From contig CM037865.1 in assembly GCA_021292105.1 (NCBI GenBank), forward strand, positions 75,275,870-75,339,869: a stretch of DNA of 64,000 nt, given 5' to 3'. A program made the translations under genes and the position numbers. Positions 18,840 through 56,350 of this stretch are shown piece after piece. The first letter of the stretch is position 1; every line of letters begins with the position of its first letter. This DNA is from Anadara kagoshimensis. Lineage: Eukaryota > Mollusca > Bivalvia > Arcoida > Arcidae. The notes beneath the pieces were generated by a model, which saw only the letters and a program-made list of their open reading frames with translations, was not told the DNA's origin and searched no databases.

Positions 18840-20296
18840 AAATTTCGTCAGCTGTATCAGTCGTATCTTCTTCTGAAATGGTTGATTCTTCGTCGGCCGT
18901 CACTGTAGATGTTTTTTCTTCCTCATCCTCTTCTTCTGTTGCTGTGTCTGTGTCTTCGTCGCTGTGTCATATACCATTTTTTGGTATACGACCATTTTTT
19001 TGAATGTATTTTATGATTAAATTCAAAAAATGGTATATGACAGCTGGAATCGGTATCGTCCAAGTTTTATCAAAATTTCTCTATTTCTTCATCGACTGCG
19101 ATGTCATTTTTCCAGTAATCGGTTTCTATTTTCTTTACGTGTTCAACACACCTTTTCCATTTTTCTGTCGATATGTCTTTCAATTGTTTTTGCACGTCCG
19201 AAAGTTTAAATTTTAAATTTTGTGAAGCAACATATGCTTTTAGATCAGCCCAAATTAATTCTATAGGATTTAAGTCTGCATGATAAGGTGGTAATCTTAA
19301 AATTTTATGTCCATGTTCTCTTAATATATAATTAATTCTGTAGGAAGGTGGAATAATTTGTTGTTTGCATATTGTAAGTAACTGCGCGAACCATGTCTTC
19401 TGTAAATTTAATGTTGTGTTTTGTGAGCCATTCCTGAATGTCTTTTTTCTTCCACGATGTTGTTGGTTTTTTGTCTACTTAGACGTTATGATAAGATGCA
19501 TTATCGACTACCAAGACGGAATTTGGTTCAAGGCTTGGAATTAATTTTTCGCGAAGCCATTTAGTGAAATTCTCAGCATTCATTTCATGGTGATAATCAC
19601 CTGTTGATGACTTGGCTTTATATATAAGGCTTGCATTAGGAACAAAACCCTTTTCTGAACCAGCATCAACAACAATCAGACGGTCACCTGCTCCGATTGG
19701 AACACTTAAACCGTTCCCATCCAACTGCCAACACTTGGGTACAGTGTGTGAAGAGTTTATATACGTTTCATCCATATAAATAATGTTGTGTCCAGTTTCT
19801 CTAAGTTTTTTAATTTCGCGAAGGTAATTATTCTTTTTGATACGATATCTGGTTTTTCCATAAGGATTTTTGTATTTGTGCTGCATTTTTTCCAGTTAAA
19901 CCCCATTTCTTTAAGCAATTTTCTGAGAATTGTTCCCCCCCCCCCTTAAAGTGAATTTTGTTAATTATTTCCGAATGAATAGCATTTATAGTTGGAAGAA
20001 CGCGTTTATTTAAATACATATTAATTATTGTTCTTCTAATCACGCAGATATCAAAATCATCAATAAAAATTTATCTGATCTCTGTTTTCTATCAGCCTGT
20101 TTGGTTTCTATTCCGAACGATTTTAATCTTGATAATGTTCTCCTCGGCACACCCGTCATTGCACTTGCTCTCTCCAAGGGACAGCTGATGGGATTTTTGA
20201 GACATTTTTGTTTTCCTCATCAAAGCAATGTTTTACAACATTGATGGCAATGTGTTTTGCCTGTGAATTTAATACAATCTTTTTATTTTCAGACAT
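18840..20296 (-). pseudogene. Decayed DDE transposase (long-spacing IS630/Tc1/mariner type)
   Basis: Translation from an ATG at 20296-20294 begins MSENKKIVLNSQAKHIA. A helix-turn-helix-like ERASAMTGVPRRTLSRLK lies near 20140. The catalytic region is clear: IIYMDETYIN (first Asp), GDYHHEMNAENFTKWL, SVLVVDNASYHNV (second Asp), and on a shifted frame LPPYHADLNPIELIW (catalytic Glu, about 19285). A Ser/Glu/Asp-rich acidic tail (DEDTDTATEEEDEEE) lies near 18930. Spacing between the second Asp and the Glu is roughly 75-85 residues, much longer than the 34-35 of classical Tc1/mariner. That suggests the long-spacing group I recall being described as DD82E. Frameshifts and stops are present: a run of Cs at about 19936 breaks the frame, and a stop follows SYHNV at about 19480. 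Confidence 0.85.
18966..19041. repeat. 76-bp foldback inside the transposase tail
   Basis: GTCATATACCATTTTTTG (18966-18983) is perfectly inverted at 19024-19041. The 40-base loop has its own small TGAAT/ATTCA inversion. It sits between the end of the catalytic domain and the acidic tail of the transposase relic. Confidence 0.8.
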
Positions 20297-22049: not shown

Positions 22050-22058
22050 CAAAAACTT
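22050..22058 (+). repeat. Target-site duplication of LINE copy 2, left
   Basis: CAAAAACTT at 22050-22058 equals 26510-26518. Uninterrupted versions of the same host sequence exist in units B and C, which confirms the insertion point. Confidence 0.8.
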
Positions 22059-22796
22059 TTTTTGTAATTCATGTTTTTATTGTCCCAGACATTAAATAGG
22101 GATGGTCAAGTGCCAGGGTTGGGGCCACTGGGTTCACTTGCCGGGTAACAAAGGGACAATTTTACAAATACAACACGTCTATATATATACAACACACCAT
22201 CAAGTACTTAAGTAAATGACAAATATATAGTTTTGTTTCCAATATTCAAACATTTTATCTATTATATTTCCTTTGGTATGGTACTTGTATATTCTTTTCA
22301 GTTTTGTATGGGTTTTTGTTTATGCAAGTGTGTGTGTGTGTGTGAACCCCTATGAGATTCAGATACAAACAGAATATATAATTCAGATACAAACAATATA
22401 TATTATATATTTTCATGATAAAGGTATAGTTCTAAGCATCAGGAAACATTTATACACTATAAATGTTGATGATTTATTTCTACTACTACTTCTGCAGTAC
22501 TAACAAGCAGTCACATCAGATGAAGAAAGTATATTATTGGTTAAAGATATTGATCTATGGGTCCCAAAATTCCAGAAATTTGGCATAAAGATTATTTTTT
22601 ATTGCAATCATTTTTTCAATATCAATCTGATATTTAAGACTCATTTTCCATGTATTTAAATTTGGCAGTTTTTTATCAATTCTACACTTATATATGTAAA
22701 GTCTGGTAGTTAAAAGTAGAAAATTTTAGGGTTTATATTTCTGTTTTTGGTCAATAAGTCCAAAGATAGCACTTTCCATATAGATATTGATGTAGC

Positions 22797-22837
<41 letters not shown>

Positions 22838-25800
22838 TCTACTTCTATCCAAAAGTTATTAGTTATCTCACAATACCAAAACAGATGTTCTATTTTTTCA
22901 GCTGTATTGTTACAGAATGTACAGAGATTATTATCCCTTAGTTTAATTTTGAATAAAAAATCATTTGTAGAAATTATTTGGTTTATCCTGTATTGAAACC
23001 ATTGATGTTTGATATTTTAACAAGTTTTAAAGGGGATATTATATAGTGATTTCCAGTCAATATCAAGGTCTAGAACGGGTTTCCATTTTTCTTGACTTTT
23101 GACAATTGTTATTATTATTAAATAGATTGTAAAAGTCCTTACTCCCTTTTTTACTTTTAAAAACTATTCTGAAAAAATATGGCATATCAATTTGTAATAA
23201 ATTAACTAGCTGGTTTTGTATATTTAATCTTTTAATATATGATTCAATGGTGGACTTTATATCATTATATTCAACAAAGTTTGACCTGACAGCAGCATAT
23301 CTTCTATTAAATTCTCTATATGAAATTATATTTCCATCTTCGTTAAGTAAATCTTTTATGGTATATATGCCACAGTTAGACCAAGACTTGTAAAATACTG
23401 GACTTTTATTTATACAGTTATCTTTATTGTACCAGCTACTTACATCTTTAACATCATTTATATTTTCAGGGTTTTGTCTCATAGACAAGAAATTCCAGGC
23501 TTCAAAAACATTATTCCAAAAACAATTATTAGGATTATTTTGTTTATTTTATTAAAATAATCATTTCCATACTTTAAGAAATTATCAATTTTAGAATATA
23601 ACTTTCTGTATTTGGATTCAATTTGAAGTAGTCTTCTAATCCATGTTATTTTGAGTGATGCTATAAAATGTTTGATGTCTATCATTTTTAAGCCTCCTTT
23701 TTCATAGCTCTGTGACATTACCTCTCTTTTTATGCGATCATTTTTATGTTGCCAAATAAAGTTAAAAACATTTTATTCAGTTTTGTTATTATTTCCAGCG
23801 GTGGATTTAAAATAGCAATAAATAAATGGTTTAGTTTGGAAATTATCAGTGTTTTCAAAATGGTTATTCTACCTAAAGGAGTTAAAATTCTTTTTGACCA
23901 CTGTTTTAAGCTTTTTTCCATTTCTTGTATTTTAATATCATAAATTATTTTTATCATTCTGTCCAAATCAACAGAGAAATTTATTCCAAGCAATGTAAAT
24001 AGACTTGGTTCCAATAATTTAAAACGATGATTAAAAGTTTTGCCATTATATTTATTACATCCAATCCACACTACTCTTGTTTTATTATTATTAATTTTTA
24101 AACCGGAAAGCAAGGCAAAGTCATCTAAGACATGTAAAGTTTCTTGTAATGATGACTCTGCTCCATCCAGTATGACAGTAGTGTCATCTGCAAAAAGTGA
24201 CAGTTTAAATTCTTCATCACCAATTTTAATACCTTTGATATTTTTATTATTTTTCAGAAGAACAGACAGAATCTCAGCATACATTAAGAATATGTAGGGT
24301 GAAATAAGACCCTCTTGACGACAACCTCTTGTTATACTAAAAAATTCAGAAACAATTCCATTTTGTAGGACTGCTGACATAATATCTTGTCGACATATTT
24401 TAATCCATTTTATAAAAAATTCACCAAAATTGAAAAAATTAAGCACTTTATCAATATAATCCCAGGACACTGAATCAAATGCATTTTCAAAATCAATCAT
24501 TAAAAGTAGCCCTGGTATATTTTTTTCCTCTGTATATTCCATTAATCATAAATTAGTCTAGTGTTTTCTCCAATATATCTGCCACTGATAAATCCTGTCT
24601 GATCTTCTGAAATACTAAACGATAATACCTTTTTCAATCTTTCAGCTATGCAGCCAGTTGCTATTTTATATACAACATTCAACAATGATATTGGTCGCCA
24701 GTTTTTTAGAATCTGCTTTAGTTTGTCCCTTTTGGTGAACAAGTTATAATACCCAGACGTTGTGTAATTGACAATTTTCCAGTATGAAATCCTTCATTTA
24801 GCGAACGTCTTAAAAAGCTTACTAAGTCGTTATAAAAAAATTTAAAAAAATTAGATGTAAAACCATCTGATCTAGGACTTTTCAAATTTTTCATTTTTCG
24901 TAAAAAAGTATGAATTTCTGTGTTTGTTAATTCTCCCTCCAAACTATGATTTTGTTCTTCAGGTAAAATACTTATGTGTTTAATATCTTTAAGTTTACTC
25001 TTGAGATCCATATCATACTCCTCATTATCTCTATTATAAAGATTGAAGTAATATTGTTTAGTTTATGCTAGGATTTTCTTTTGATCAGTATTATAGAGTT
25101 ATCATCTTTTACAACTTTCCGGATTAATTTACTGACAAAATTTCTGGATTCTAAACTACAAAAATACTTTGTTGGTTTTTCAGCTTCCTCTACCTACCTT
25201 GCTTTAGACCTTAACAGAGACCCTTTCATTTTTTCTTTTCTTAATTCCTCCAAATCTTTCTTTTTATTATTAATTTCATTAATGTTAGAAAAACAGTTAC
25301 TTTTTAGTCTAGCAATTTCATCAATTATCTGTTTCTCTTTTTGGATGGACATTTTTTTACGGCAAGAGCAGTATGATATGGATTTTCCCGTAATTGCATG
25401 CAAAGCAGTTTCCAAAAATTGTTGATCTGTAATGGTAAATTGAATATCATCATTGCTAATTTCATTAATTTTTTCTATGTTATAAACAGGCACTACATAT
25501 TGCATTTTTACATCTTTGATACACTTTTTCACTATATTAATATAGTTTTTATCTGTTAGTAGGAAATTGTTGAATTTCTAGAGGCCTCTACCTTTAAGAA
25601 ATTCATTTAGTTTCAATGATAAACAAACAGAAGAATGGTCAGACCTATAACTAGGATTAATTTTGTCATCTACAACCTTGGACAACAAATTTTCTGACAC
25701 AAGAAAAAAATCAAGTCTACTTTGTTTTAATGGGTGTTTTTTTTCGCCAAGTATATTTTCTGTCATCTGGATATAGTTATCTAAAAGAGTCTATGAGATT

Positions 25801-26509
25801 AAATTCATCTTTCATATTTATTACAACATCTCTTGCTTTTGGATTATTGTAATGGAGGAAACCAAAGGTATCCAGTTCTTGATTCTGAACTAAATTAAAA
25901 TCACCATTTATGATACAATATTCATTTTCAAAATCTTGGAGAATTTTTGCTATATTTGAAAAAAATTGTGGGTTATCCTCATTTGGAGCATATATATTTA
26001 TTAATGTTACTCTCATCTTTTCAATAGTCAGGTCAACTGCTATATAATTCCCATTATTATCTTTTTTAATTTGGTGTATATTATACTCAAAATTATTATT
26101 AAACAAAATGCCTACCCCTCTTGAGTTTTATGTAACTGAATTTAAAATAATTTCTCCAAACCATTCTGATCTTATTACCAAATGTAAATTGTCTACCAAA
26201 TGAGTTTCTTGTAAACAGTATATATTATATGATTTTGACCTTATAAGTTCAACACATCCCTACGTTTTTCATAATCCTTTAGACCTCTACAGTTGGAAGT
26301 AAGTATTGTGATATTGTTATGTGCTTCCATGATTGGATTTGATCAATAACTTTCATTTTGTTGTCTATAAAACAAACAAGGCATTCTGGTGAAGTAATAC
26401 AAACTTCACTTCTTAATATATTAAACATTTTGTTACTAGTTACAAAAATCATGAGGAAAGTCAAGTGGGTTGACAAAGTGTATGATATGTGTTTGTGTAA
26501 AGGTGATTG
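22059..26509 (-). mobile_element. 5'-truncated LINE (L1/Tx1-like), copy 2
   Basis: This minus-strand element is homologous to the full-length LINE at 31025-38240. Its 3' end is at 22059 (poly-A read as TTTTT, then GTAATTCATGTTTTTATTG). Its 5' end is truncated at 26509, in the region corresponding to about 33837 of copy 1, so ORF1 is absent. The duplication CAAAAACTT lies on both sides. An (AT)n tract at about 22799-22835 lies within the ORF2-derived sequence. Confidence 0.93.
22488..26330 (-). pseudogene. LINE ORF2 relic (endonuclease + reverse transcriptase), copy 2
   Basis: The relic starts at the ATG at 26330 and shows in order: endonuclease pieces (NIYAPNEDNPQFF, CIINGDFNLVQ, SRLDFFLVSENLL, SDHSSVCLSLK), the thumb/linker region, RT motifs (RPISLLNVVYKIATG, DFENAFDSVSWDYID, SPYIFLMYAEILS, FADDTTVILDG) and C-terminal sequence. 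Several frameshifts and stops split it into pieces. Two RT positions also differ from copy 1: FEK to FEN, and CRQGDPIS to CRQEGLIS. It keeps the EIHTFLRKMKNLKSPRSDGF segment that copy 1 has lost. Confidence 0.92.
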
Positions 26510-29560: not shown

Positions 29561-30090
29561 ATTGTCAAAATTAAACAACTAAGTCTAACCAAATTAACCT
29601 GTCTGTTTTACACAGATTTAAATAATCAACTGAGTGTAACGAACTTAACCTGTCCCTTTTACACAGATTTAAATAATCAACTGAGTGTAACGAACTTAAC
29701 CTGATCCTTTTACACAGATTTAAATAATCAACTGCGTGTAACGAACTTAACCTGTCTATGTCACACAGATTTGAATAATCAACTGAGTGTAACGAACTTA
29801 ACCTGTCCCTTTTACACAGATTTTAATGATCAACTGAGTGTAACCAACTTAATCGGTTTCACACATAATTAAACGATCAACTAAGTGTAACAAACTTAAC
29901 CTGTCTGTTTTACACAGATTTAAATAATCAACTGCGTGTAACCAACTTAATCTGTTTATCACAGATTTAAATGATCAACTAAGTGTAACGAACTTAACCT
30001 GTCCCTTTTACACAGATTTAAATAATCAACTGAGTGTAACCACTTAATCTGTCTGTTTCACACATAATTAAATGATTAACTGAGTGTAAT
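29561..30090. repeat. 51-bp satellite, left block (~10 copies)
   Basis: The unit is TTAACCTGTC, TGTTTCACAC, AGATTTAAAT, GATCAACTGA, GTGTAACCAA, C. The same satellite resumes at 40351, so the Penelope-like element between was inserted into one array. Confidence 0.92.
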
Positions 30091-30234: not shown

Positions 30235-31012
30235 GCTAGCTACACCCGCCACGTGTGTAATCAAAATTGTGTGAAAGGAACATGGAACTATGGGACGTCA
30301 AATATATCCAGGGCAATCCTGGACGCAGAGACGTCAAACTTATCAACAATACTGTGATGACGGTCATAACACTTTTTGAGGGCCTTAATAGGCCTGGGCT
30401 TGCAATATATTCTTGAGTCAGCCATTTATTTGCAAGCAGCCTACTTCGTTGTACAAAATCCCTGTAGTAGGAACAGGCTCTTCCATAGCGTATTAATTAA
30501 GAAACAAATACACCATAAGCAGGAGAAGCAGGTATATTGCTGCATAGAAAAGGAAAGTTGGCAATAGAAAAATTGAAGTCATCACGTTTGTCATCAAGTT
30601 TTAAATGTAGCCTTTCGTGTGCGTCATAATTCAAGTATAAGTCTAAATATGAAGTAGAACTTGAGGAATCAGTCGTGTCTTTTATTTCAAGCTCACTAGG
30701 ATAGATGATATTCACATAGTCTCCAAATTTAGGATTGTTAACAGACAGAACGTCATCTATATATCTGTATGTTGAGTTGAATGATTTGGCGACAATCTTC
30801 TCTCTAGATTTAACAAGGTTCTGCATAAATTCTGCTTCATAAGAATAAAGAAACAAATCAGCAAGCAATGGTGCACAGTTTGTACCCATTGGTGTACCGA
30901 TTGTTTGTTGAAAAACTATATTACCAAACACAACAAATATGTTATCTATCAAAATCATTTTGTTGATGGTTTCTTTAGTATATTTTTGTTTGGAATCCGT
31001 ATGGTGCTTGAC
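30235..31012 (-). pseudogene. Penelope-like RT, catalytic core and C-terminus
   Basis: Recognisable blocks: FVKHHTDSKQKYTKETINK, then VFQQTIGTPMGTNCAPLLAD, then FRYIDDVLS-type YRYIDDVLSVNNPKFGDYV (catalytic Asp pair), IYPSELEIKDTTDSS, KRDDFNFSIANFPFLCSNIP, PAYGVFVS. A weaker tail resembling LIRYGRACSYYRDF follows. This is the classical Penelope-like RT palm and thumb. The matching N-terminal half lies beyond the LINE at 38253-39010. Confidence 0.88.
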
Positions 31013-31024
31013 AAAGAATCCCTG
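31013..31024 (+). repeat. Target-site duplication of LINE copy 1, left
   Basis: AAAGAATCCCTG, identical to 38241-38252. Within the Penelope-like RT it encodes Q-G-F-F on the minus strand, and the RT reading continues from one copy to the other across the LINE. Confidence 0.92.
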
Positions 31025-31251
31025 ATCATGGGATTGATATCGAGATAGGAGCATGAAACACTAGCTCTACAAAATTACCAAAATTTGGGCAGTTAGAGAC
31101 AATTTTATGCGACAGTTTTTGGTATAGTATTTCATAAGAATGATTGGATCATATTTGTGAAAAAACATTTTCAAAAAATTTGAAAGAAAGTGTTATATTT
31201 GTGTTACAAAGTTCTATTTTTCCCCTTTGTTTGAGTCAGTGAGTACTTTTC

Positions 31252-32418
31252 ATGATGTCTTTACCACCCGAGTTATTAACTGCATTAGGTCAGTTACCTG
31301 TAATACAGGCTACCTTACAAACTATGAACAGTAAAATAACTGAAATAAGTGAACTTCAGCGAAACGTTAATGAATTGAAAGCAGATATCTATGACGAAGA
31401 CGGGATAGAACCGCGTCTCACATACGTTAGTCAGCAAACTGAGGATACTTTTTCAGACGTTGAGGCTTTGAAAACTGAAAATAAAAAACTTAAAAAAGAT
31501 ATTGACCTGCTTAAAGCCGTAGTTATACGATTAGACCGTAAAAGTACAGAGCAAGAACGCGAGATAACTGAGCTCAAGAGCCGCTCTATGCGCGATAACA
31601 TACTTATCCACAATCTTGCTGAGGAGGAAAATGAGGACCTTAAAACTAAGGTTAACCGTCTGTTCAGAGAACACCTCGGTGTTGATATTCAATTTGTTAG
31701 AATTCACAGAAATTCTCCTAAAATGAACCCTAAAGGAAAACCTCGTTCAATAACAGGCAAATTAGTGGATCTTGAACAAAAAGATACGATATTAAGAGCA
31801 CAACGTCGGAAACTTGACAACAACGAAAAGCTACCATTCTATGTAACACCCCAGACCCCACCACAAATTAACGAAAACAGGAAAAAACTTCATGAACTAA
31901 ATAAACAATATAGAGAAAATGGCACAAACACCCGTGTTGTCGGTAACAAACTTGTATTCCCCAACGGTAATGTTTATAAGGAGAAGGTCTTTACCCCCAA
32001 AGCCGAGGATATTCTCACCATAGACGACGAGGAATCAGAAAAGCTTTCCAAAATCAACACAAAATCTAGTTCAAAAATCTCGGAAAGTGGAAATCATTTT
32101 GTTGCTGAAGGGGGTATTACTAAGTCAATTACACAAGTTAGGAACTTATACAAGAAAATTTCATCCAATCCAGTACATGCACGCGCGAACCACAGGATAC
32201 TTGTATATAGAACTATTGATAATGACGGTAAAGTGCACGAAGGTTACAGTGATGATGGAGAATATGGAGCTGGACGGAAACTTCTTAAAGTGATGCAGGA
32301 TCAAGGACTTACTAATTGTACTTTCGTTGTAGTTAGGTGGTTTAGTGGCACACATCTAGGGCCAAAAAGATTTAAAATTATGGAAGATGTACTGCTTGAA
32401 GCAGCTGGTTCACTTTGA
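31252..32418 (+). CDS. LINE ORF1 protein with coiled coil, RRM-like domain and C-terminal IMPACT/UPF0029 domain
   Basis: 388 residues, uninterrupted. Residues ~25-112 are heptad-rich (coiled coil, trimerisation in L1 ORF1p). Residues ~113-245 look like an L1-type RRM plus C-terminal domain: SMRDNILIHNLAEEENEDLK, FVRIHRNSPKMNPKGKPRSI, LRAQRRKLDNNEKLPFYVTP. These domains bind RNA in L1. Residues ~282-388 match the IMPACT N-terminal/YigZ (UPF0029) fold: SDDGEYGAGRKLLKVM (~333-348), GLTNCTFVVVRWFSGTHLG (~352-370) and PKRF. They correspond to the DDGE..AGGRLLHLM and VVVSRWYGG..LGPDRF blocks of animal IMPACT. In animals IMPACT binds GCN1 and dampens GCN2 stress signalling; whether the LINE uses it so is unknown. 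The ATG at 31252 is followed at once by a second ATG. Confidence 0.93.
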   Translation: MMSLPPELLTALGQLPVIQATLQTMNSKITEISELQRNVNELKADIYDEDGIEPRLTYVSQQTEDTFSDVEALKTENKKLKKDIDLLKAVVIRLDRKSTEQEREITELKSRSMRDNILIHNLAEEENEDLKTKVNRLFREHLGVDIQFVRIHRNSPKMNPKGKPRSITGKLVDLEQKDTILRAQRRKLDNNEKLPFYVTPQTPPQINENRKKLHELNKQYRENGTNTRVVGNKLVFPNGNVYKEKVFTPKAEDILTIDDEESEKLSKINTKSSSKISESGNHFVAEGGITKSITQVRNLYKKISSNPVHARANHRILVYRTIDNDGKVHEGYSDDGEYGAGRKLLKVMQDQGLTNCTFVVVRWFSGTHLGPKRFKIMEDVLLEAAGSL

Positions 32419-32493
32419 TTATGATCTATACTTGTAATATGATCCTTAACATAATGACATAATGTTTATTGTAACTGTATACATCCTAAAATC

Positions 32494-32594
<101 letters not shown>

Positions 32595-32864
32595 GGTACT
32601 CTTGAAATCCGGATTTCGTACATTTCGTTTTCCTAGTAATTTATTAACATCGTGGAGTGACTTCCGACAGCACGTTATAGACCGGTTAGCCCTTGTAATG
32701 TTTTATTTTTTCTTTGATAACTAATGGTAAGATTACCCCCGCGGAATCTATTTATATCATAATGTATAGACAATATGACTTCACATGTCTTAACAGGACA
32801 ACTCCACTCCTAATTAAAACATGCTACATTTGAAATCAGAACTTATGCCGACCAGCCAAACGAG

Positions 32865-33330
32865 GTCGTGGTGTGTGTTTATATATATGTATGCGTATAT
32901 ATGTGTGTATTGTGCAGTGTATATATGTGTGCATGTACACATGTATATATGCACGCATTCATACCTTTGTATGCTTATGTCTTTTGGTATGGTGGTATAC
33001 ATGTATATACTTTTGTGTAAATATATCTGTATTTACACACATGTTGCTTAACCTGTGTATATAATGTATATATACTTTATATTATTCTGCAAAATTATAT
33101 ATTTGTCTACATTTGTACTTGCATGCATATATATATATATGTATATGTGTATACTGATATACATGTGGGCATTTTTTTGGGGGGGGGAGGAGAATGTGTA
33201 TGTATATATTCTAAGGTTTTTATGGAGGTATACTTCAGGGTGTATACATGAATGTATATTTATATATCCCTGTGTTAATAATTTTGTATGTATGACAGGT
33301 GTAGGGATGTACATACATGTGTATTTAGGT
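32865..33330. repeat. Degenerate TG/TA-rich low-complexity tract
   Basis: Irregular TATATGTGTG / CATGTACACATG mixtures that open long meaningless frames on both strands. It lies in the LINE inter-ORF region. Confidence 0.8.
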
Positions 33331-33399
33331 TAAATTTTTATTATTCTTTTCAGCCCAGTGCTGTTTTGTTTTTTTTTTTTAAGCAAGAAATAATCAGTA

Positions 33400-33613
33400 C
33401 AGTACAGACCTGCCAAAAGTTTAACACTGGGCTGGCGGATTAGTGCCGAATCAGCAGCTCATCTCAGACTCTGTAGTAAGTTATATCTACTGCAGCCACC
33501 ATATCTCTCGACAGCCTTTTAGTCACTAGCAATCTCTATCTCCGTCACTCGGTAGCCGAGATTTTGACACCTATTCGTTACCTCAGTGTTAAACTTTCGA
33601 GAGGTCTGTACTG
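33400..33613. mobile_element. 214-bp MITE with ~29-bp TIRs, Tc1/mariner-like
   Basis: It starts CAGTACAGACC..AAAGTTTAACACTG and ends in the inverse, CAGTGTTAAACTTT..GGTCTGTACTG. TA lies at 33398-33399 and 33614-33615, the expected target duplication. The CAGT start is typical of Tc1/mariner/pogo relatives. It is non-coding and inserted between the two ORFs of the LINE. Confidence 0.88.
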
Positions 33614-34012
33614 TAGCTTAGCTATGTCACAGTTCTTTTTTTATGGTACTGTCTTAAATTTTGGTTATTAATTGAACAGAAGTAGAAAATTCCCATGCTA
33701 TTTTTAGCTTTTTTTTCTTAATTATTAAATTCTATCTAACTTTGCCTTGCCACATCATTCAGTGGCATCTGCTTGCTTTGATAATATACAAAATCACATG
33801 AAAGTACAAATGAATTTATTACTTTTTATACATTACAATCACCTTTACACAAACACATATCATACACTTTGTCAACCCCATTGACTTTCCTCATGATTTT
33901 TGTAACTAGTAAAAAATGTTTAATATCTTAAGCAGTGAAGTTTGTATTACTTCACCAGAATGCCTTGTTTGTGTTATAGACAAATAATAAAAGTTATTGA
34001 TAAAATCCAATC

Positions 34013-37000
34013 ATGGAAGCACATAATAGTATCACAATACTTACCTCCAACTGTAGAGGTCTAAAGAATTATGAAAAACGTAGGGATGTGTTGAACTTCC
34101 TAAGGTCAAAATCATATAACATATACTGTTTACAAGAAACTCATTTGGTAGACAATTTACATTGGGTAATAAGATCAGAATGGGGTGGAGAAATTATTTT
34201 AAATTCAGTTACATCAAACTCAAGAGGGGTAGGCATTTTGTTTAATAATAATTTTGAGTATAATATACACCAAATTAAAAAAGATAATAATGGGAATTAT
34301 ATAGCAGTTGACCTGACTATTGAAAAGATGAGAGTAACATTGATAAATATATATGCTCCAAATGAGGATAACCTACAATTTTTTTCAAATATAGCAAAAA
34401 TTCTCCAAGATTTTGAAAATGAATATTGCATCATAAATGGTGATTTTAATTTAGTTCAGAATCAAGAACTGGATACCTTTGGTTACCTCCATTACAATAA
34501 TCCAAAAGCAAGAGATGTTGTAATAAATATGAAAGATGAATTTAATCTCATAGACCCTTTTAGAGAACTATATCCAGAAGATAGAAAATATACTTGGCGA
34601 AAAAAACACCCATTAAAACAAAGTAGACTTGATTTTTTCCTTGTGTCAGAAAATTTTTTGTCCAAGGTTGTAGATGTCAAAATCAATCCTAGTTATAGGT
34701 CTGACCATTCTTCTGTTTGTTTATCATTAAAACTAAATGAATTTGTTAAAGGTAGAGGCCTCTGGAAGTTCAACAATTCCCTACTAACAGATAAAAACTA
34801 TATTGATATAGTGAAAAAGTGTATTAAAGATGTAAAAATACAATATGTAGTGCCTGTTTATAACATAGAAAAAATTAATGAAATAAGCAATGATGATATT
34901 CAATTTACCATTACAGATCAACAATTTTTAGAAACTGCTTTGCTTGAAATTAGGGGAAAAACCATATCATACTCCTCTTACCGTAAAAAAATGTCCATTC
35001 AAAAAGAGAAACAGATAATTGATGAAATTACTAGACTAGAAAGTAACTGTTTTTCTAACATTAATGAAATTAATAATAAAAAGAAAGATTTAGAGGAATT
35101 AAGAAAAGAAAAAAAATGAAAGGGTCTCTGTTAAGGTCTAAAGCAAGGTGGGTAGAGGAAGGTGAAAAACCAACAAAGTATTTTTGTAGTTTAGAATCCA
35201 GAAATTTTGTTAGTAAAATAATCCCAAAAGTTGTAAAAGATGATAACTCTATAATTACTGATCAAAAGGAAATCCTAGCAGAAACTAAACAATATTACTT
35301 CAATCTTTATAACAGAGATAATGAGGAGTATGATATGGATCTCAAGAGTAAACTTAAAGATATTAAACACATAAGTATTTTAACTGAAGAACAAAAGCAG
35401 AGTTTGGAGGGAGAATTAACAAATTTTTTTATAACGACTTAGTAAGCTTTTTAAGACGTTCGCTAAATGAAGGATTTCATACCGGAAAATTGTCAATTAC
35501 ACAACGTCAGGGTATTATAACTTGTTTACCGAAAGGGGACAAACCAAAGCAGTTTCTAAAAAACTGGCGACCAATATCATTGTTGAATGTTGTATATAAA
35601 ATAGCATCTGGCTGCATAGCTGAAAGATTGAAAAAGGTATTACCGTTTATTATTTCAGAAGATCAGACAGGATTTATCAGCGGTAGATATATAGGTGAAA
35701 ACACTAGACTAATTTATGACTTAATGCAATATACAGAGGAAAAAAATATACCAGGACTACTTTTAATGATTGATTTTGAAAAGGCATTTGATTCAGTGTC
35801 CTGGGATTATATTGATAAAGTGCTTGATTTTTTCAATTTTGGTGAATCTTTTATAAAATGGATTAAAATATTTCGACCAGATATTAAGTCAGCAGTCCTA
35901 CAAAATGGAATTGTTTCTGAATGTTTTAGTATAACAAGAGGTTGTCGTCAAGGGGACCCTATTTCACCTTACATATTCTTAATGTGTGCTGAGATTCTGT
36001 CTGTTCTTCTGAAAAATAATAAAAATATCAAAGGTATTAAAATTGGTGATGAAGAATTTAAACTGTCACTTTTTGCGGACGACACTACTGTCATACTGGA
36101 TGGAGCAGAGTCATCATTACAAGAAACTTTACATGTTTTAGATGACTTTGCCTTGCTCTCCGGTCTAAAAATTAATAATAACAAAACTAGAGCAGTGTGG
36201 ATTGGATGTAATAAATATAATGGCGAAACCTTTAATCATCGTTTTAAATTAGATTGGAACCAAGGTCCATTTACATTGCTTGGAATAAATTTTTCTGTTG
36301 ATTTGGACAGAATGATAAAAATAAATTATGATAATAAAATACAAGAAATAGAAAAAAGCTTAAAACAGTGGTCAAAAAGAATTTTAACTCCTTTAGGTAG
36401 AATAACCATTTTGAAAACACTGATAATTTCCAAACTAAACCATTTATTTATTGCTATTCCAAATCCACCACTGGAAATAATAACAAAACTGAACAAAATG
36501 TTTTTTAACTTTATTTGGCAACATAAAAATGATCGCATAAAAAGAGAGTTAATGTCACAGAGCTATGAAAAAGGAGGCTTATAAATGATAGACATCAAAC
36601 ATTTTATAGCATCACTCAAATAACATGGATTAGAAGACTACTTCAAATTGAATCCAAATACAGAAAATTTTTGAGATTTCATATTCTAAAATTGATAATT
36701 TCTTAAAGTATGGAAATGATTATTTTAATAAAATAAAACAAAATAATCCTAATAATTGTTTTTGGAATAATGTTTTTGATGCCTGGAATTTCTTGTCTAT
36801 GAGACAAAAACCTGAAAATATAAATGATGTTAAAGATGTAAGTATCTGGTACAATAAAGATATCTGTATAAATAAAAGTCCAGTATTCTACAAGTCTTGG
36901 TCTGACTGTGGCATATATTTCATAAAAGATTTACTTAATGAAGATGGAAATATAATTTCATATAGAGAATTTAATAGAAGATATGCTGCTGTCAGGTCAA

Positions 37001-37788
37001 ACTTTGTTGAATATAATGGTATAAAGTCCACCATTGAATCATATATTAAAAGTTTAAATATACAAAACCAACCAGTTAATTTATTACAAATTGATATGCC
37101 ATATTTTTTCAGAATAGTTTTTAAAAGTAAAAAAGGAAGTAAGGACTTTTACAATGTATTTAATAATAACAACACAATTGTCAAAAGTCAAGAAAAATGG
37201 AAATCCATTCTAGACCTTGATATTGACTGGAAATCACTATATAATATTCCCTTTAAAACTTGTAAAAATACCAAATTACAATGGTTTCAATACAGGATAA
37301 ACCAACGAATAATTTCTACAAATGATTTTTTATTCAAAATTAAACTAAGGGATAATAATCTCTGTACATTCTGTAACAATACAGCTGAAAAAATAGAACA
37401 TCTGTTTTGGTATTGTGAGATAGTTAATAACTTTTGGATGGAAGTAGAGGATTTTATATATAAAAAAATAAATCGCTACATCAATATCTATAGGGAAAGT
37501 GCTATCTTTGGACTTATAGACCAAAAACAGAAATATAAACCTCAAAATTTTCTATTTTTAACTACCAGACTTTACATATATAAGTGTAGAATTGATAAAA
37601 AACTGCCAAATTTAAGTACATGGAAAATGAGTCTTAAATATCAGATTAATATAGAAAAAATCATTGCAAAAAAAATAATCTTTATGCCAAATTTCTGGAA
37701 TTTTGGGACCCATGGATCAATATCTTTGACGAATGATATACTTTCTTCATCTGATGTGACTGTGGTGTTAGTACTGCAGAAGGGGTAG
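34013..37788 (+). pseudogene. LINE ORF2 (APE endonuclease + reverse transcriptase), copy 1
   Basis: Endonuclease: ITILTSNCRGLKNYEKRRD, YCLQETHLVD, INIYAPNEDN, CIINGDFNLVQ, SRLDFFLVS, YRSDHSSV. RT: RPISLLNVVYKIASGCIAER, DFEKAFDSVSWDYID, GCRQGDPISPYIFLM, LFADDTTVILDG. C-terminal Cys/His cluster: CTFCNNTAEKIEHLFWYC. Breaks, judged against copy 2: two extra As in the A-run near 35110 (stop after EELRKEKK), an ~80-bp deletion near 35421, AAA to TAA at about 36583, and a lost A plus rearranged bases at about 36618-36680. The remainder at 36793-37788 is open. So reverse transcriptase activity from this copy is not expected. Confidence 0.95.
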
Positions 37789-38085
37789 TAGAAATAAATC
37801 ACCAACATTTATAGTGTATAAAATGTTTCCTGATGCTTAGAACTATACTTTTATCATGAAAATGTACAATATATACTGTTTGTACCTGAATTATATATAC
37901 TGTTTGTATCTGAATCTCATAGGGGTTGACACACACACACACACACACTTGCATATAAACAAAAACCCATACAAAACTGAAAAGAATATACAAGTACAAT
38001 ACCAAAGGAAATATAAAAGATAAAATGTTGGAAATATTTGAAACAAAAATATATATTTGTCATTTACTTAGGTGCTTGATGGTGT

Positions 38086-38121
<36 letters not shown>

Positions 38122-38240
38122 TGTGTTGTATTTGTAAACTTGTCCTTTTGTTACCCGGCAAGTGAACCCAGTGGCCCCAACCCTGGCACTTGACCATCCC
38201 TATTTAATGTCTGGGACAATAAAAACATGAATTACAAAAA

Positions 38241-38252
38241 AAAGAATCCCTG
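38241..38252 (+). repeat. Target-site duplication of LINE copy 1, right
   Basis: AAAGAATCCCTG, identical to 31013-31024, directly after the LINE A-run. Confidence 0.92.
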
Positions 38253-39010
38253 TTCAGCACCGGCCTACCGTCTTTGTAAAAGAACGACAAGCAAACAATT
38301 TGTCCCAGACGCTCCCCCAGCCCAGAACGAGGGACAGTGGTGCACAGTGCAGAAAACCAAATACCTCCACACCCTTTATATCAGATAAAGCATTAGAAAC
38401 TAGATGGTCAAGTAATTCTCTAGAATTTCCGATAATCCACACTTGGTTGACTCCAGATGTAGAACATACCTATTCCGAATAAGACTGAAGACAATCTTTG
38501 ACAATTGTCAAAATTTGCAATAGAGTCACCGCCAATGATCCAGTAGTACATCCTTCCCTATATGGACCTCCATGGAGCCCAGGAATCCAACACAAGCAAG
38601 GAAGACCAAGACCCTTCCCCCAAGACCGACACCGAAAGACTCGAGAATGGCCGGAAAGAACCCCATCTTTGGCAAAAATAGTTCCAGCATATGCAGGGTC
38701 ATTTGACATACCATCCAAACCAAGCTCCCCAACAAGACACCCAAGGCAGAATCTTAAACAAACGAGAATAATGCTGTTGGAAGCCTTATCAGCTTGGACA
38801 ACAACATATTTGTTGTGTATGCCTTAATTTCTTGATCCCCGAGTACCGAAGACGGTTTAGTACTCATAGACCCTTTAAGTTTGGCAATTCTCGTTTTAAC
38901 GAAAGATCTCACAACCTTTATCCAGTCGGATGAGGTATCAAGCTCAACATCTTCTAATTTAGCCCAACGCCTGGCGTACTCTTCAACAGAATCCATGACA
39001 AGTCTGAAAT
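38253..39010 (-). pseudogene. Penelope-like RT, N-terminal half
   Basis: Blocks typical of this family are readable: MDSVEEYARRWAKLEDVELD and DWIKVVRSFVKTRIAKLKG (38754-38996), CLCWIPGLHGGPY and LLQILTIVKDCLQSYSE (about 38470-38620), then GVNQVWIIGNSRELLDHLV and DIKGVEVFGFLHCAPLS (about 38330-38450). The region reads into the 12-bp duplication and continues in the RT core at 31012. It is decayed, with several breaks. Confidence 0.8.
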
Positions 39011-47414: not shown

Positions 47415-49800
47415 ATGGGTAGACACTGATTTTTCAATGCGCACTAGGCATTTAAAAATAAAAGTCACCAGGTCCTTAGGAAAAGATCATAAAACAATGT
47501 TCTGTGTCACAGCAGGCATGTCATGTTAAGACTCTCCCTGCATGTTCTGTGTCACAGCAGGCATGTCATGTTAGAGAACTCTCCCTGCATGTTCTGTGTC
47601 ACAGCAGGCATGTCATGTTAGAGAACTCTCCCTGCATATTCTATGTCACAGCAGGCATGTCAAGTTAAAGAACTCTCCCTGCATGTTCTGTCACAGCAGG
47701 CATGCCATGTTAGAGAACTCTCCCTGCATGTTCTGTGTCACAGCAGGCATGTCATGTTAAAGAACTCTCCCTGCATGTTCTGTGTCACAGCAGGCATGTC
47801 ATGTTAAAGAACTCTCCCTGCATGTTCTGTGTCACAGCAGGCATGTCATGTTAGAGAACTCTCCCTGCATATTCTATGTCACAGCAGGCATGTCAAGTTA
47901 AAGAACTCATCCTGCATGTTCTGTCACAGCAGGCATGCCATGTTAAACTCTCCCTGCATGTTCTGTGTCACAGCAGGCATGTCATGTTAAAGAACTCTCC
48001 CTGCATGTTCTGTGTCACAGCAGGCATGTCAAGTTAAAGAACTCTCCCTGCATGTTCTGTGTCACAGCAGGCATGTCAAGTTAAAGAACTCTCCCTGCAT
48101 GTTCTGTGTCACAGCAGGCATGTCAAGTTAAAGAACTCTCCCTGCATGTTCTGTGTCACAGCAGGCATGTCATGTTAAAGAAATCTCCCTGCATGTTCTG
48201 TGTCACAGCAGGCATGTCATGTTAAAGAACTCTCCCTGCATGTTCTGTGTCACAGCAGGCATGTCATGTTAGAGAACTCTCCCTGCATGTTCTGTGTCAC
48301 AGCAGGCATGTCATGTTAGAGAACTCCCTGCATGTTCTGTGTCACAGCAGGCATGTCATGTTAGAGAACTTCCCTGCATGTTCTGTGTCACAGCAGGCAT
48401 GTCATGTTAAAGAACTCTCCCTGCATGTTCTGTGTCACAGCAGGCATGTCATGTTAAAAACTCTCCCTGCATGTTCTGTGTCACAGCAGGCATGTCATGT
48501 TAAAAAACTCTCCCTGCATGTTCTGTGTCACAGCAGGCATGTCATGTTAAAGAACTCTCCCTGCATGTTCTGTGTCACAGCAGGCATGTCATGTTAAAGA
48601 CCTCTTCCTGCATGTTCTGTGTCACAGCAGGCATGTCATGTTAAAGAACTCTCACTGCATGTTCTGTGTCACAGCAGGCATGTCATTAAAGAACTCTCCC
48701 TGCATGTTCTGTGTCACAACAGGCATGTCATGTTAAAGAACTCTCCCTGCATGTTCTGTGTCACAGCAGGCATGTCAGTTAAGAACTCTCCCTGCATGTT
48801 CTGTGTCACAGCAGGCATGTCATGTTAGAGAACTCTCCCTGCATGTTCTGTGTCACAGCAGGCATGTCAAGTTAAAGAACTCTCCCTTCATGTTCTGTGT
48901 CACAACAGGCATGTCATGTTAAAGAACTCTCCCTGCATGTTCTGTGTCACAGCAGGCATGTCAAGTTAAAGAACTCTCCCTGCATGTTTTGTGTCACAGC
49001 AGGCATGTCAAGTTAAAGAACTCTCCCTTCATGTTCTGTGTCACAGCAGGCATGTCATGTTAAAGAACTCTCCCTGCATGTTCTGGTCACAGCAGGCATG
49101 TCATGTTAGAGAACTCTCCCTGCATGTTCTGTGTCACAGCAGGCATGTCATGTTTAAGAACTCTTCCTGCATGTTCTGTGTCACAGCAGGCATGTCAAGT
49201 TAAAGAACTCTCCCTGCATGTTCTGTGTCACAGCAGGCATGTCATGTTAAAGAACTCTCCCTGCATGTTCTGTGTCACAGCAGGCATGTCATGTTAAAGA
49301 ACTCTCCCTGCATGTTCTGTGTCACAGCAGGCATGTCATGTTAAAGAACTCTCCCTGCATGTTCTGTGTCACAGCAGGCATGTCATGTTAAAGAACTCTC
49401 CCTGCATGTTCTGTGTCACAGCAGGCATGTCATGTTAAAGAACTCTCCCTGCATGTTCTGTGTCACAGCAGGCATGTCATGTTAAAGAACTCTCCCTGCA
49501 TGTTCTGTGTCACAGCAGGCATGTCATGTTAAAGAACTCTCCCTGCATGTTCTGTGTCACAACAGGCGTGTCATGTTAAAGAACTCTCCCTGCATGTTCT
49601 GTGTCACAGCAGCATGTCATGTTAGAGAACTCTCCCTGCATGTTCTGTGTCACAGCAGGCATGTCATGTTAAAGAACTCTCCCTGCACATTGCCATTAGC
49701 ACTCGGCAAAGGTAAACATTTCTGCTACTTAACCTATAGATGGTGATGTCTCAATATAAGATATATAAATTCTTGACTGGGGCATAAAACCTAATTCATC
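47415..49800 (+). mobile_element. SINE remnant split by a 47-bp tandem array
   Basis: The left flank (AATGGGTAGACACTGA, CACTAGGCATTTAAAAATAAA, GTCACCAGG) and right flank (TGCCATTAGCACTCGGC, TTTCTGCTACTTAACC, ATTCTTGACTGGGGCATAAA) align to consecutive parts of the intact SINE at 51698-52038. The array lies exactly where that SINE has GTGTCACGGTGGGCTTGGCA, CGCTAAAGAACCCTGC. Confidence 0.8.
47494..49688 (+). repeat. 47-bp minisatellite, ~46 copies
   Basis: The unit is ATGTTAAAGA, ACTCTCCCTG, CATGTTCTGT, GTCACAGCAG, GCATGTC. Variants AAGTTAAAG and ATGTTAGAG form blocks, and some units carry 1-4-base deletions. It lies in the intron-side region between exons 46.8 and 49.9 kb. Long frames across it are an artefact of the absence of stops. 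Confidence 0.97.
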
Positions 49801-53639: not shown

Positions 53640-54690
53640 AATACACTTACACTATACACATGTACACAATCCATTATCTATATACACAATCACAATCCAT
53701 TGATTGTACACACAATCCACTACCTATACATACAATCCATTATCCGTACCTATAATCCATTATCTATACATACAATCCATTATTTGTACACACAATCCAT
53801 TATCTACACATACAATCCATTATTTGTACATAGCATTCATTATTTGTACATACAATCCATTATTTGTACACACAATCCATTATCTACACATACAATCCAT
53901 TATCTGTACATACAGTCCATTATCTGTACACACAATCTATTATCTGCACATACAATCCATTATGTATACATACAATCCCGTATCTGTAAATACATTCCAT
54001 TATCTGTACATACAATCCATTGTCTGTACAAACAATCCATTGTCTGTACACACAATCTATTATCTATACATACAATCCATTATGTATACATACAATCCAT
54101 TATCTATACACACAATCCATTATCTGTACATACAATCCGTTATCTATACATACATATACATACAATCCATGATCTGTTCATAAAATACATTATCTATACA
54201 TACAATCCATTATCTGTATATACAATCCATTATCTGTATATACAATCCATTATCTATACATTCAATCCATTATCTGTACATACAATCCATTATATGTATA
54301 TACAATCCATTATCTATACATACAATCCATTATCTATACACACAATCCATTATCTGTACATACAATCCGTTATCTGTACATACAATCCATTATCTATACA
54401 TGCAATCCATTATCTATACATACATATACATACAATCCATTATCTATACATACATATACATACAATCCATGATCTGATCTGTACATACAATCCATTATCT
54501 ATACATACAATCCATGATCTGTACATACAAACCATTATCTGTACATACAATCCATTATCTGTACATACAATCCATTATCTATACATACAATCCATTACCT
54601 ATACATACATATACATACAATCCATTATCTGTACATACAATCCATTATCTATACAAACAATCTATTATCTGTACTTACACTCCACATTAT
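53640..54690. repeat. 20-bp minisatellite, ~50 copies
   Basis: The unit is CCATTATCTATACATACAAT with TATCTGTACACACAAT variants. Short CATACATATACATACAA insertions break the register near 54150, 54420 and 54605. Together with the next array it fills nearly the whole intron between the 53.3 and 56.4 kb exons. Confidence 0.95.
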
Positions 54691-56350
54691 ACACACAATC
54701 CACAGCCTGTACATTTTTTCTATACACAATACTCTATCTGTACACACACTACACATGTATACATACAATCCATCAGAGCTTGTATATGAGTTTTTAACCT
54801 ATGACATTTTTTCTATACAAATACTCTATCTGTACACACACTACACATGTTTACATACAATCTATCAGAGCTTGTATTTGAGCTTTGAACCTATGACATT
54901 TTTTCTATACACAATACTCATCTGTACACACACTACACATGTATACATACAATCCATCAGAGCTTGTATTTGAGTTTTGAACCTATGACATTTTTTCTAT
55001 ACACAATACTCTATCTGTACACACACTACACATGTTTACATACAATCTATCAGAGCTTGTATTTGAGCTTTGAACCTATGACATTTTTTTCTATACACAA
55101 TACTCTATATGTACACACACTACACATGTATACATACAATCTATCAGAGCTTGTATTTGAGTTTTAAACCTATGACATTTTTTCTATACACAATACTCTA
55201 TCTGTACATACACTACACATGTATACATACAATCTATCAGAGTTTGTATTTAAGCTTTGAACCTATGACATTTTTTCTATACACAATACTCTATCTGTAC
55301 ACACACTACACATGTATACATACAATCTATCAGAGCTTGTATTTGAGTTTTGAACCTATGACATTTTTTCTATACACAATGCTCTATCTGTACATACACT
55401 ACACATGTATACATACAATCTATCAGAGTTTGTATTTAAGCTTTGAACCTATGACATTTTTCCTATACACAATACTCATCTGTACACACACTACACATGT
55501 ATACATACAATCCATCAGAGCTTGTATTTGAGTTTTTAACCTATGACATTTTTTCTATACACAATGCTCTATCTGTACATACACTACACATGTATACATA
55601 CAATCCATCAGAGCTTGTATTTGAGTTTTTAACCTATGACATTTTTTCTATACACAATACTCTATATGTACACACACTACACATGTATACATACAATCTA
55701 TCAGAGCTTGTATTTGAGTTTTGAACCTATGACATTTTTTCTATACACAATACTCTATCTGTACACACACTACACATGTATACATACAATCTATCAGAGC
55801 TTGTATTTAAGCTTTGAACCTATGACATTTTTTCTATACACAATACTCATCTGTACACACACTACACATGTATAAACACAATCCACAGAGCTTGTATTAA
55901 AGCTTTGAACCTATGACATTTTTTCTATACACAATACTCATCTGTACACACACTACACATGTATAAACACAATCCACAGAGCTTGTATTAAAGCTTTGAA
56001 CCTATGACATTTTTTCTATACACAATACTCATCTGTACACACACTACACATGTATACATACAATCCATCAGAGCTTGTATTTAAGCTTTGAACCTATGAC
56101 ATTTTTTCTATACACAATACTCTATCTGTACATACACTACACATGTATACATACAATCCATCAGAGCTTGTATTTGAGTTTTGAACCTATGACATTTTTT
56201 GTATACAAATACTCTATCTGTACACACACTACACATGTTTACATACAATCCACCAGAGCTTGTATTTAAGCTTTGAACCTATGACATTTTTTCTATACAC
56301 AATGCTCTATCTGTACACACACTACACATGTATAAACACAATCCACAGCC
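54691..56350. repeat. ~93-bp satellite, ~18 copies
   Basis: The unit is CTATACACAATACTCTATCT, GTACACACACTACACATGTA, TACATACAATCTATCAGAGC, TTGTATTTGAGCTTTGAACC, TATGACATTTTTT. The part TTTGAACCTATGACATTTTTTC, TATACA resembles TTTGAACCCATGACC, TTTTTCTATACATC of the 145-bp bivalve repeat unit, so it may derive from it. It lies intronic to CDK5RAP1. Confidence 0.95.

Follow-up and report, generated by a model that had tools for sequence, protein, structure and literature searches.

LINE-1 retrotransposons encode a type II ORF1 protein (ORF1p; structures 2yko and 2ykp, Pfam family PF02994) in which a coiled coil is followed by an RRM and a CTD, and ORF1 is followed by an APE-type endonuclease and an L1-type reverse transcriptase (RT). 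In the accessible part of PMC4120745, five ORF1 types are described, IMPACT not being among them, and the domains given as additions to ORF1p are PHD, esterase and CCHC; ORF1s of Jockey/CR1/L2 elements carry PHD or esterase domains (types III and IV and PHD variants of types I and II), and in the Jockey superfamily ORF1 types have been shuffled among ORF2 lineages. Few add-on domains of LINE ORF1p have been described, and such domains hint at what a retrotransposon needs from the cell. IMPACT and its homolog Yih1 (6bqi) are composed of an RWD domain and an 'ancient' domain. According to the available portions of two papers, both proteins associate with ribosomes (PMC7140605), the invariant loops of Yih1 and YigZ lie on one face that was suggested for binding (PMC4503747), and the ancient domain is described as being of unknown function (PMC4503747, PMC7140605).

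Here we describe a LINE in a 64,000-nucleotide stretch of Anadara kagoshimensis DNA (the window, meaning that whole stretch) whose ORF1 carries an IMPACT ancient domain. The protein resembles LINE-1 ORF1p in its succession of coiled coil, RRM and CTD, with an APE endonuclease and an L1-type RT encoded behind ORF1, but its CTD is followed by about 105 further residues, the IMPACT domain, and its sequence is too divergent for PF02994. With IMPACT and Yih1 it shares the sequence and fold of the ancient domain, including the DDGE and LGxxRF loops; unlike them, the ORF1s are without RWD, and the domain is fused to a retrotransposon RNA-binding protein. The predicted fold is also that of the PF01205 domain of bacterial YigZ and TTHA1053 (1vi7, 2cve), whose sequence matches are far weaker than those of Yih1. 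A host-like domain in ORF1 is common to this element and the Jockey/CR1/L2 group as covered in the accessible text, whereas the domain is another one and ORF2 is here of the L1 superfamily. The initial annotation knew of no described LINE ORF1 with this domain, and we likewise found none in the literature searched, a coverage that left most subscription papers and the Repbase notes outside, nor in the accessible parts of PMC4120745, PMC11203168, PMC8905726 and PMC10294476.

The window ORF1 is of L1 type and ends in an IMPACT domain

ORF1 (31252..32418, + strand) is an intact reading frame of 388 residues, as the initial annotation had stated, and was aligned with 28 relatives to give a profile of 29 ORF1s. 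Its residues 282-381 (32095..32394, +) matched PF01205 with E=2.3e-20 and 73 bits (cut-off 27), covering model positions 4-103 of 107. The top PDB sequence match was Yih1 ('Protein IMPACT homolog', E=2e-10) over ORF1 residues 272-384, the IMPACT part aligning to Yih1 residues 137-250. PF01205 was matched by 29 of 29 ORF1s at E<=0.01, and RWD (PF05773) by none of the 29 at the same threshold. Six residues, D334, E337, G339, G370, R373 and F374, are invariant across the alignment.

For the region upstream, residues 113-250 (31588..32001, +) were assigned to the RRM-CTD by profile and fold matches to LINE-1 ORF1p, and residues 1-110 (31252..31581, +) to the coiled coil by the helices of the model and a weak match of the 29-row profile. 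The window ORF1 taken singly gave no match to Transposase_22 (PF02994) at E<=1, and one of the 29 members matched it (E 0.002). The 29-ORF1 profile matched human LINE-1 ORF1p at positions 83-247 (2ykp, E=4e-7) and in the RRM-CTD region (2yko, E=6e-7; 2ldy, E=3e-6), the LINE-1 ORF1p coiled-coil chain 6fia weakly (E=0.0098), and Yih1 at positions 278-392 (E=2e-22).

An AlphaFold monomer model built from the 29-ORF1 alignment had a mean pLDDT of 87.8, with ten-residue means of 86-97 over residues 281-388 and long helices at residues 6-47 and 52-110; the model from the single sequence was poor (mean pLDDT 52) and was left out of the fold search. In Foldseek the alignment-based model matched LINE-1 ORF1p (2yko, E=3e-7, rmsd 7.8) and Yih1 (6bqi, E=5e-7, rmsd 4.5), and behind Yih1 came TTHA1053 (2cve, 4e-6) and YigZ (1vi7, 8e-6). 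Among predicted viral structures, the single match below 0.001 was an unnamed 161-aa protein (A0A346G423, E=9e-6). These results confirm an L1-type (type II) ORF1p, with coiled coil, RRM and CTD, that ends in an IMPACT ancient domain. Both the coiled coil with RRM-like region and the IMPACT/UPF0029 domain of the initial annotation are thereby upheld, and we regard this anatomical part of our explanation as almost certain.

Insertion unit, copies and selection

The whole element occupies 31025..38243 (+) and comprises a 5'UTR, ORF1-IMPACT, a spacer, ORF2 and a 3' tail. This 7.2-kb insertion lies in a Penelope-like element and is bounded by a 12-bp target-site duplication (TSD), AAAGAATCCCTG, at 31013..31024 on the left and 38241..38252 on the right, where it adjoins the A-rich tail; the TSD core GAATCCCTG has just two occurrences in the window, both on the + strand, and none as reverse complement. 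A paralogous empty site was found in locus L019, where one blastn piece of 72% identity spans the joined Penelope-like flanks, and L018 (contig 36) starts at the exact first base of the window element with different flanking DNA. ORF2 extends over 34013-37788 and encodes an APE-type endonuclease part (34013..35119, +; PF03372, E=6.6e-12), an RT part (35490..36584, +; PF00078, E=4.6e-35) and a C-terminal part with zinc-binding zf-RVT (36793..37788, +; PF13966, E=5.6e-8). In the window it is broken: about 80 bp present in other copies are absent near 35423, and the frame breaks a second time after 36584. The top PDB match of the window RT was human LINE-1 ORF2p (E=4e-51; R2, 4e-21), and from its APE endonuclease and an RT nearest to that of L1 the element appears to be an L1-superfamily LINE.

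ORF1 and ORF2 are separated by a 1.6-kb spacer (32419..34012, +) containing a (TC)n(TA)n tract and an inverted repeat (33398-33450 and 33563-33615, arms 77% complementary). This length would fit a chance juxtaposition of two separate elements, one with ORF1-IMPACT and one with ORF2, as would a second, 5'-truncated copy of the ORF2 half (COPY2; 22057..26509, - strand, 94-96% identical), which starts at the equivalent of 33833-33836. COPY2, however, has its own 9-bp TSD, AAGTTTTTG, at its truncation point, and the outer TSD and the empty site of the window element enclose both ORFs. Moreover, L016 is colinear with the window from ORF1 residue 53 through the spacer to the 3' end, the spacer is likewise colinear in L018, and ORF1 is followed by the endonuclease in all 20 loci for which ten kb were taken. 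We therefore rule out two elements side by side on the outer TSDs, the L019 empty site and the L016/L018 colinearity, leaving that reading hardly any probability. Later insertions into the spacer were also rejected, as L016 and L018 have the spacer too. TSDs measure 12 bp in the window copy, 11 bp in L019/L020, 15 bp in L011 and 9 bp in COPY2, and were not found for L012 and L021. L019 and L020 are a duplicated segment, 99% identical including the flanks, so that three independent insertions with TSDs (window, L011 and L019/L020) hold both ORFs. The A-rich 3' tail, variable-length TSDs and 5' truncation are as in L1-superfamily LINEs.

The window's own genome (1.115 Gb, 36 contigs), the one genome examined, was searched in six frames with PF01205. 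All 150 places scored, the best 150 of 275 candidates, passed the cut-off, and 142 of them are without a stop inside the matched stretch. An RRM-CTD, recognised with a profile built from the window element's ORF1 family, lies upstream of IMPACT in 44 of 44 distinct LINE loci, the window included, and is at least partly in the same frame in 43 (the frame differs in L005); these loci are not a random sample, because they were drawn from PF01205 hits and many were picked for long frames. L003, L004 and L007 repeat L009, L010 and L011; they were left out of the alignment, and each repeated locus was counted once. In the 20 ten-kb loci the endonuclease lies downstream on the same strand in every case and the RT in 18. 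In the reverse search, the RRM-CTD (ORF1 residues 101-281) was the query and the best 150 of 686 candidates were scored: among the matches listed, an IMPACT place lies behind at least 92 of the 128 that reach query position 150 or beyond and behind at least 7 of the 22 shorter ones. Thirty-six ORF1s had no listed IMPACT place, and all ten that were sampled do contain IMPACT, which in several is truncated or lies in another frame; no ORF1 of the window clade without IMPACT was seen with these 10 of 36 candidates inspected. A PF02994 search of the genome gave no match, nor did it in control genomes, and no relatives of the window element were present in viral and prokaryotic contig collections.

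Selection on the IMPACT domain was assessed by codon-model fits and raw pN and pS, because saturated dS defeats cross-family pairwise NG86. Very recent copy pairs hold too few changes for a good dN/dS test. In four subclades omega was 0.014, 0.020, 0.019 and 0.040 for IMPACT and 0.015, 0.035, 0.085 and 0.037 for the RRM-CTD, and across 19 representatives it was 0.016 (GY) or 0.026 (MG), values that are rough since cross-family dS is saturated. With omega set to 1 and kappa to 2, the IMPACT fits lost 62 to 124 lnL units. The raw proportions agree in direction, with pN 0.12 and pS 0.83 for L040/L042, pN 0.12 and pS 0.75 for L027/L033, and pN 0.29 and pS 0.76 for the window and L012, the least clear between-family pair. 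The IMPACT domain is under purifying selection.

As to the source of the domain, bacterial YigZ-type proteins were matched by the 29-ORF1 profile at 0.003 and 2e-4, so far below Yih1 that the source is probably eukaryotic. Two probable host IMPACT exons, L059 (G000:C19:28009838) and L060 (C19:29488231), are 66% identical to Yih1 over 35 aa, and that of L059 is preceded by an apparent splice acceptor. The two have equal scores and lie 1.5 Mb apart, perhaps through gene duplication or as an assembly duplicate. Leaving aside these exons and a single unassigned 57-aa place (47%), the matches have 25-42% identity to Yih1. The LINE IMPACT domains are intronless, and RNA-mediated capture is likely. 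The top genome hit, L001 (118 bits), was rejected as host IMPACT; alone among the 150 scored places it reads as a bacterial gene. The stretch at this locus (G000:C22, 3309 bases) is AT-rich, apparently has TGA inside genes, as in Mollicutes, and carries its own YigZ/IMPACT-family gene, so that the contig looks like assembled symbiont or contaminant DNA.

An intronless LINE domain, as against an intron-bordered probable host exon (L059), is also what a host IMPACT retrocopy that had landed by accident beside or inside the window ORF1 alone would produce. Against this, the same fusion recurs at the same position in all 44 distinct LINE loci, 43 of them in frame at least in part, and has been kept, with omega near 0.02, while the ORF1s diverged to about 30% identity. 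Such an accident is thus extremely improbable, and a local rearrangement joining the domain to one copy, which the initial annotation had named along with a missing PF01205 match as grounds for abandoning its reading, is ruled out by the many-locus fusion and by selection.

ORF1 and ORF2 have different histories. L010 is 98% identical to the window element in the endonuclease and 99% in the RT but 46% in the RRM-CTD and 54% in IMPACT, while L009 and L010 are 67% and 77% identical in the RRM-CTD and IMPACT but 45% in the endonuclease over 138 residues. Among nine families, identities of RRM-CTD and RT are uncorrelated (rho 0.11, p 0.54, 36 pairs), whereas RRM-CTD and IMPACT covary (Mantel r 0.88, p 1e-4, 19 representatives). 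In AU tests on the nine families, the RT tree was rejected for both ORF1 parts and RT rejected both ORF1 trees. Rejection was milder between the RRM and IMPACT trees (p 0.0016 and 0.012); this may reflect exchange inside ORF1 or noisy alignments, and the domain may have been captured more than once. In broken copies, endonuclease identities obtained by stitching come out too low, as L014/L015 gave 0.71 with DNA 98.7% identical; RT values, although stitched likewise, and long clean matches were therefore weighted above them. Long DNA similarity among families with different ORF1s begins near 33782-33833, about 180-230 nt before ORF2, which would place the cassette junction there, in the spacer. 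Given this phylogenetic conflict, ORF1-IMPACT behaves like a cassette that is exchanged between ORF2 backbones, and whole-ORF1 cassette exchange is suggested for L1-superfamily elements.

Candidate roles of the ancient domain

Our preferred explanation, to which we assign a probability of roughly 0.6 as a whole, is that a LINE lineage captured an IMPACT domain, has kept it by selection and uses it for docking. Long ago a eukaryotic IMPACT mRNA would have supplied the domain, in one or a few capture events, and selection would have preserved it as the ORF1 cassette diverged and passed from one ORF2 backbone to another. ORF1p trimers would coat the element RNA, each presenting three IMPACT domains, and the conserved DDGE and LGxxRF loops may dock on an old and conserved component of the translation apparatus, either the ribosome or a ribosome-associated factor; docking would keep ORF1p on its own translating RNA and could thereby aid RNP assembly and cis-preference. 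Strong selection on a translation-regulator domain throughout a large family suggests that the need it serves is translation or association with the ribosome. We tentatively favour, at somewhat less than even odds, a role in which the ORF1p RNP docks on the translation apparatus. It is a guess, because the literature accessible to us calls the function of the ancient domain unknown, and two observations go against it. In the available text on Yih1, a segment whose exact bounds are not stated there suffices to bind ribosomes, GCN1 and actin; it overlaps with residues 68-132 and with the linker between RWD and ancient domain, whereas the part kept in the LINE corresponds to Yih1 137-250. The other is the wide spread in net charge of the domain, given below.

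Two other roles follow in our order of preference, the nearer being an extra surface for RNA or nucleic-acid binding or a chaperone surface, which would strengthen the packaging of RNA by ORF1p with no link to translation. A contribution to RNA binding is proposed for other ORF1 domains (CCHC, CTD; PMC4120745, accessible part), and several families have basic IMPACT domains; net charge, however, varies between -2 and +9 among 19 representatives, is not consistently positive and was rejected as a general argument, and the most conserved residues lie in loops that cellular IMPACT also has, not in a newly formed basic patch. We consider this role unlikely. More improbable still is an antagonist of the stress response, in which the IMPACT domain of ORF1p would bind GCN1 or a neighbour and limit GCN2 activation, so keeping element mRNA translated while eIF2-alpha kinases are on. 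Overexpressed IMPACT and Yih1 do inhibit GCN2 and associate with ribosomes (PMC4503747, PMC7140605, accessible parts), and the available text of PMC10289378 offers a precedent for an ORF1p that influences eIF2-alpha in a different way: in cultured cells PRKRA, an interaction partner of mouse L1 ORF1p, increased both the amount of ORF1p and retrotransposition, and it reduced eIF2-alpha phosphorylation moderately. The LINE domain may likewise act in the eIF2-alpha stress pathway. The GCN1 step, as the initial annotation had invoked it, is on the other hand not supported, since GCN1 binding depends on the RWD domain that all 29 ORF1s are without; a mutation in RWD helix H3 of Yih1 reduces GCN1 binding, so that the helix is needed for full binding, and RWD alone is inhibitory when overexpressed (PMC4503747, PMC7140605, both as far as accessible). 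In the genome, each of the 10 RWD hits is 0.99 Mb or more away from the IMPACT places among the matches listed, which is weak evidence because no RWD was found close to the probable host exons on C19 either, presumably on account of introns.

A broader proposal, that these LINEs carry their own translation-control module which at the ribosome either blunts the eIF2-alpha (GCN1/GCN2) response or holds ORF1p on its translating RNA, and that this advantage spread the cassette onto many ORF2 backbones, seems to us somewhat doubtful. The ORF1-IMPACT family offers a natural system for finding the binding partner of the ancient domain.

Surroundings of the element in the window

The element is flanked on the left by the C-terminal part of an RT (30497..31024, -; RVT_1, 22.6 bits, below the cut-off of 29.6), which also matched telomerase RT weakly (E=0.022), and on the right by an N-terminal part (38253..38469, -), read from the sequence and contiguous with the left part in L019, which alone had no Pfam match. 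We take this RT to be Penelope-like from its motifs together with the weak RT and telomerase matches; no relatives of it were found in viral contig and plasmid collections. The window LINE and the LINE family of L019/L020 have both entered one Penelope-like family, at sites roughly 100 bp from each other, too few cases for a claim of target preference. A 51-bp minisatellite (29572-30089) adjoins the Penelope-like element on the left, and the translation of the right flank at about 40.2-40.6 kb reads as a similar repeat. Elsewhere in the window, a 135-aa fragment (19479-19886, -) presumably derives from a Tc1/mariner-type transposase, and two long tandem-repeat arrays, 47497-49687 (unit about 47 bp) and 53664-56348, create long spurious ORFs.
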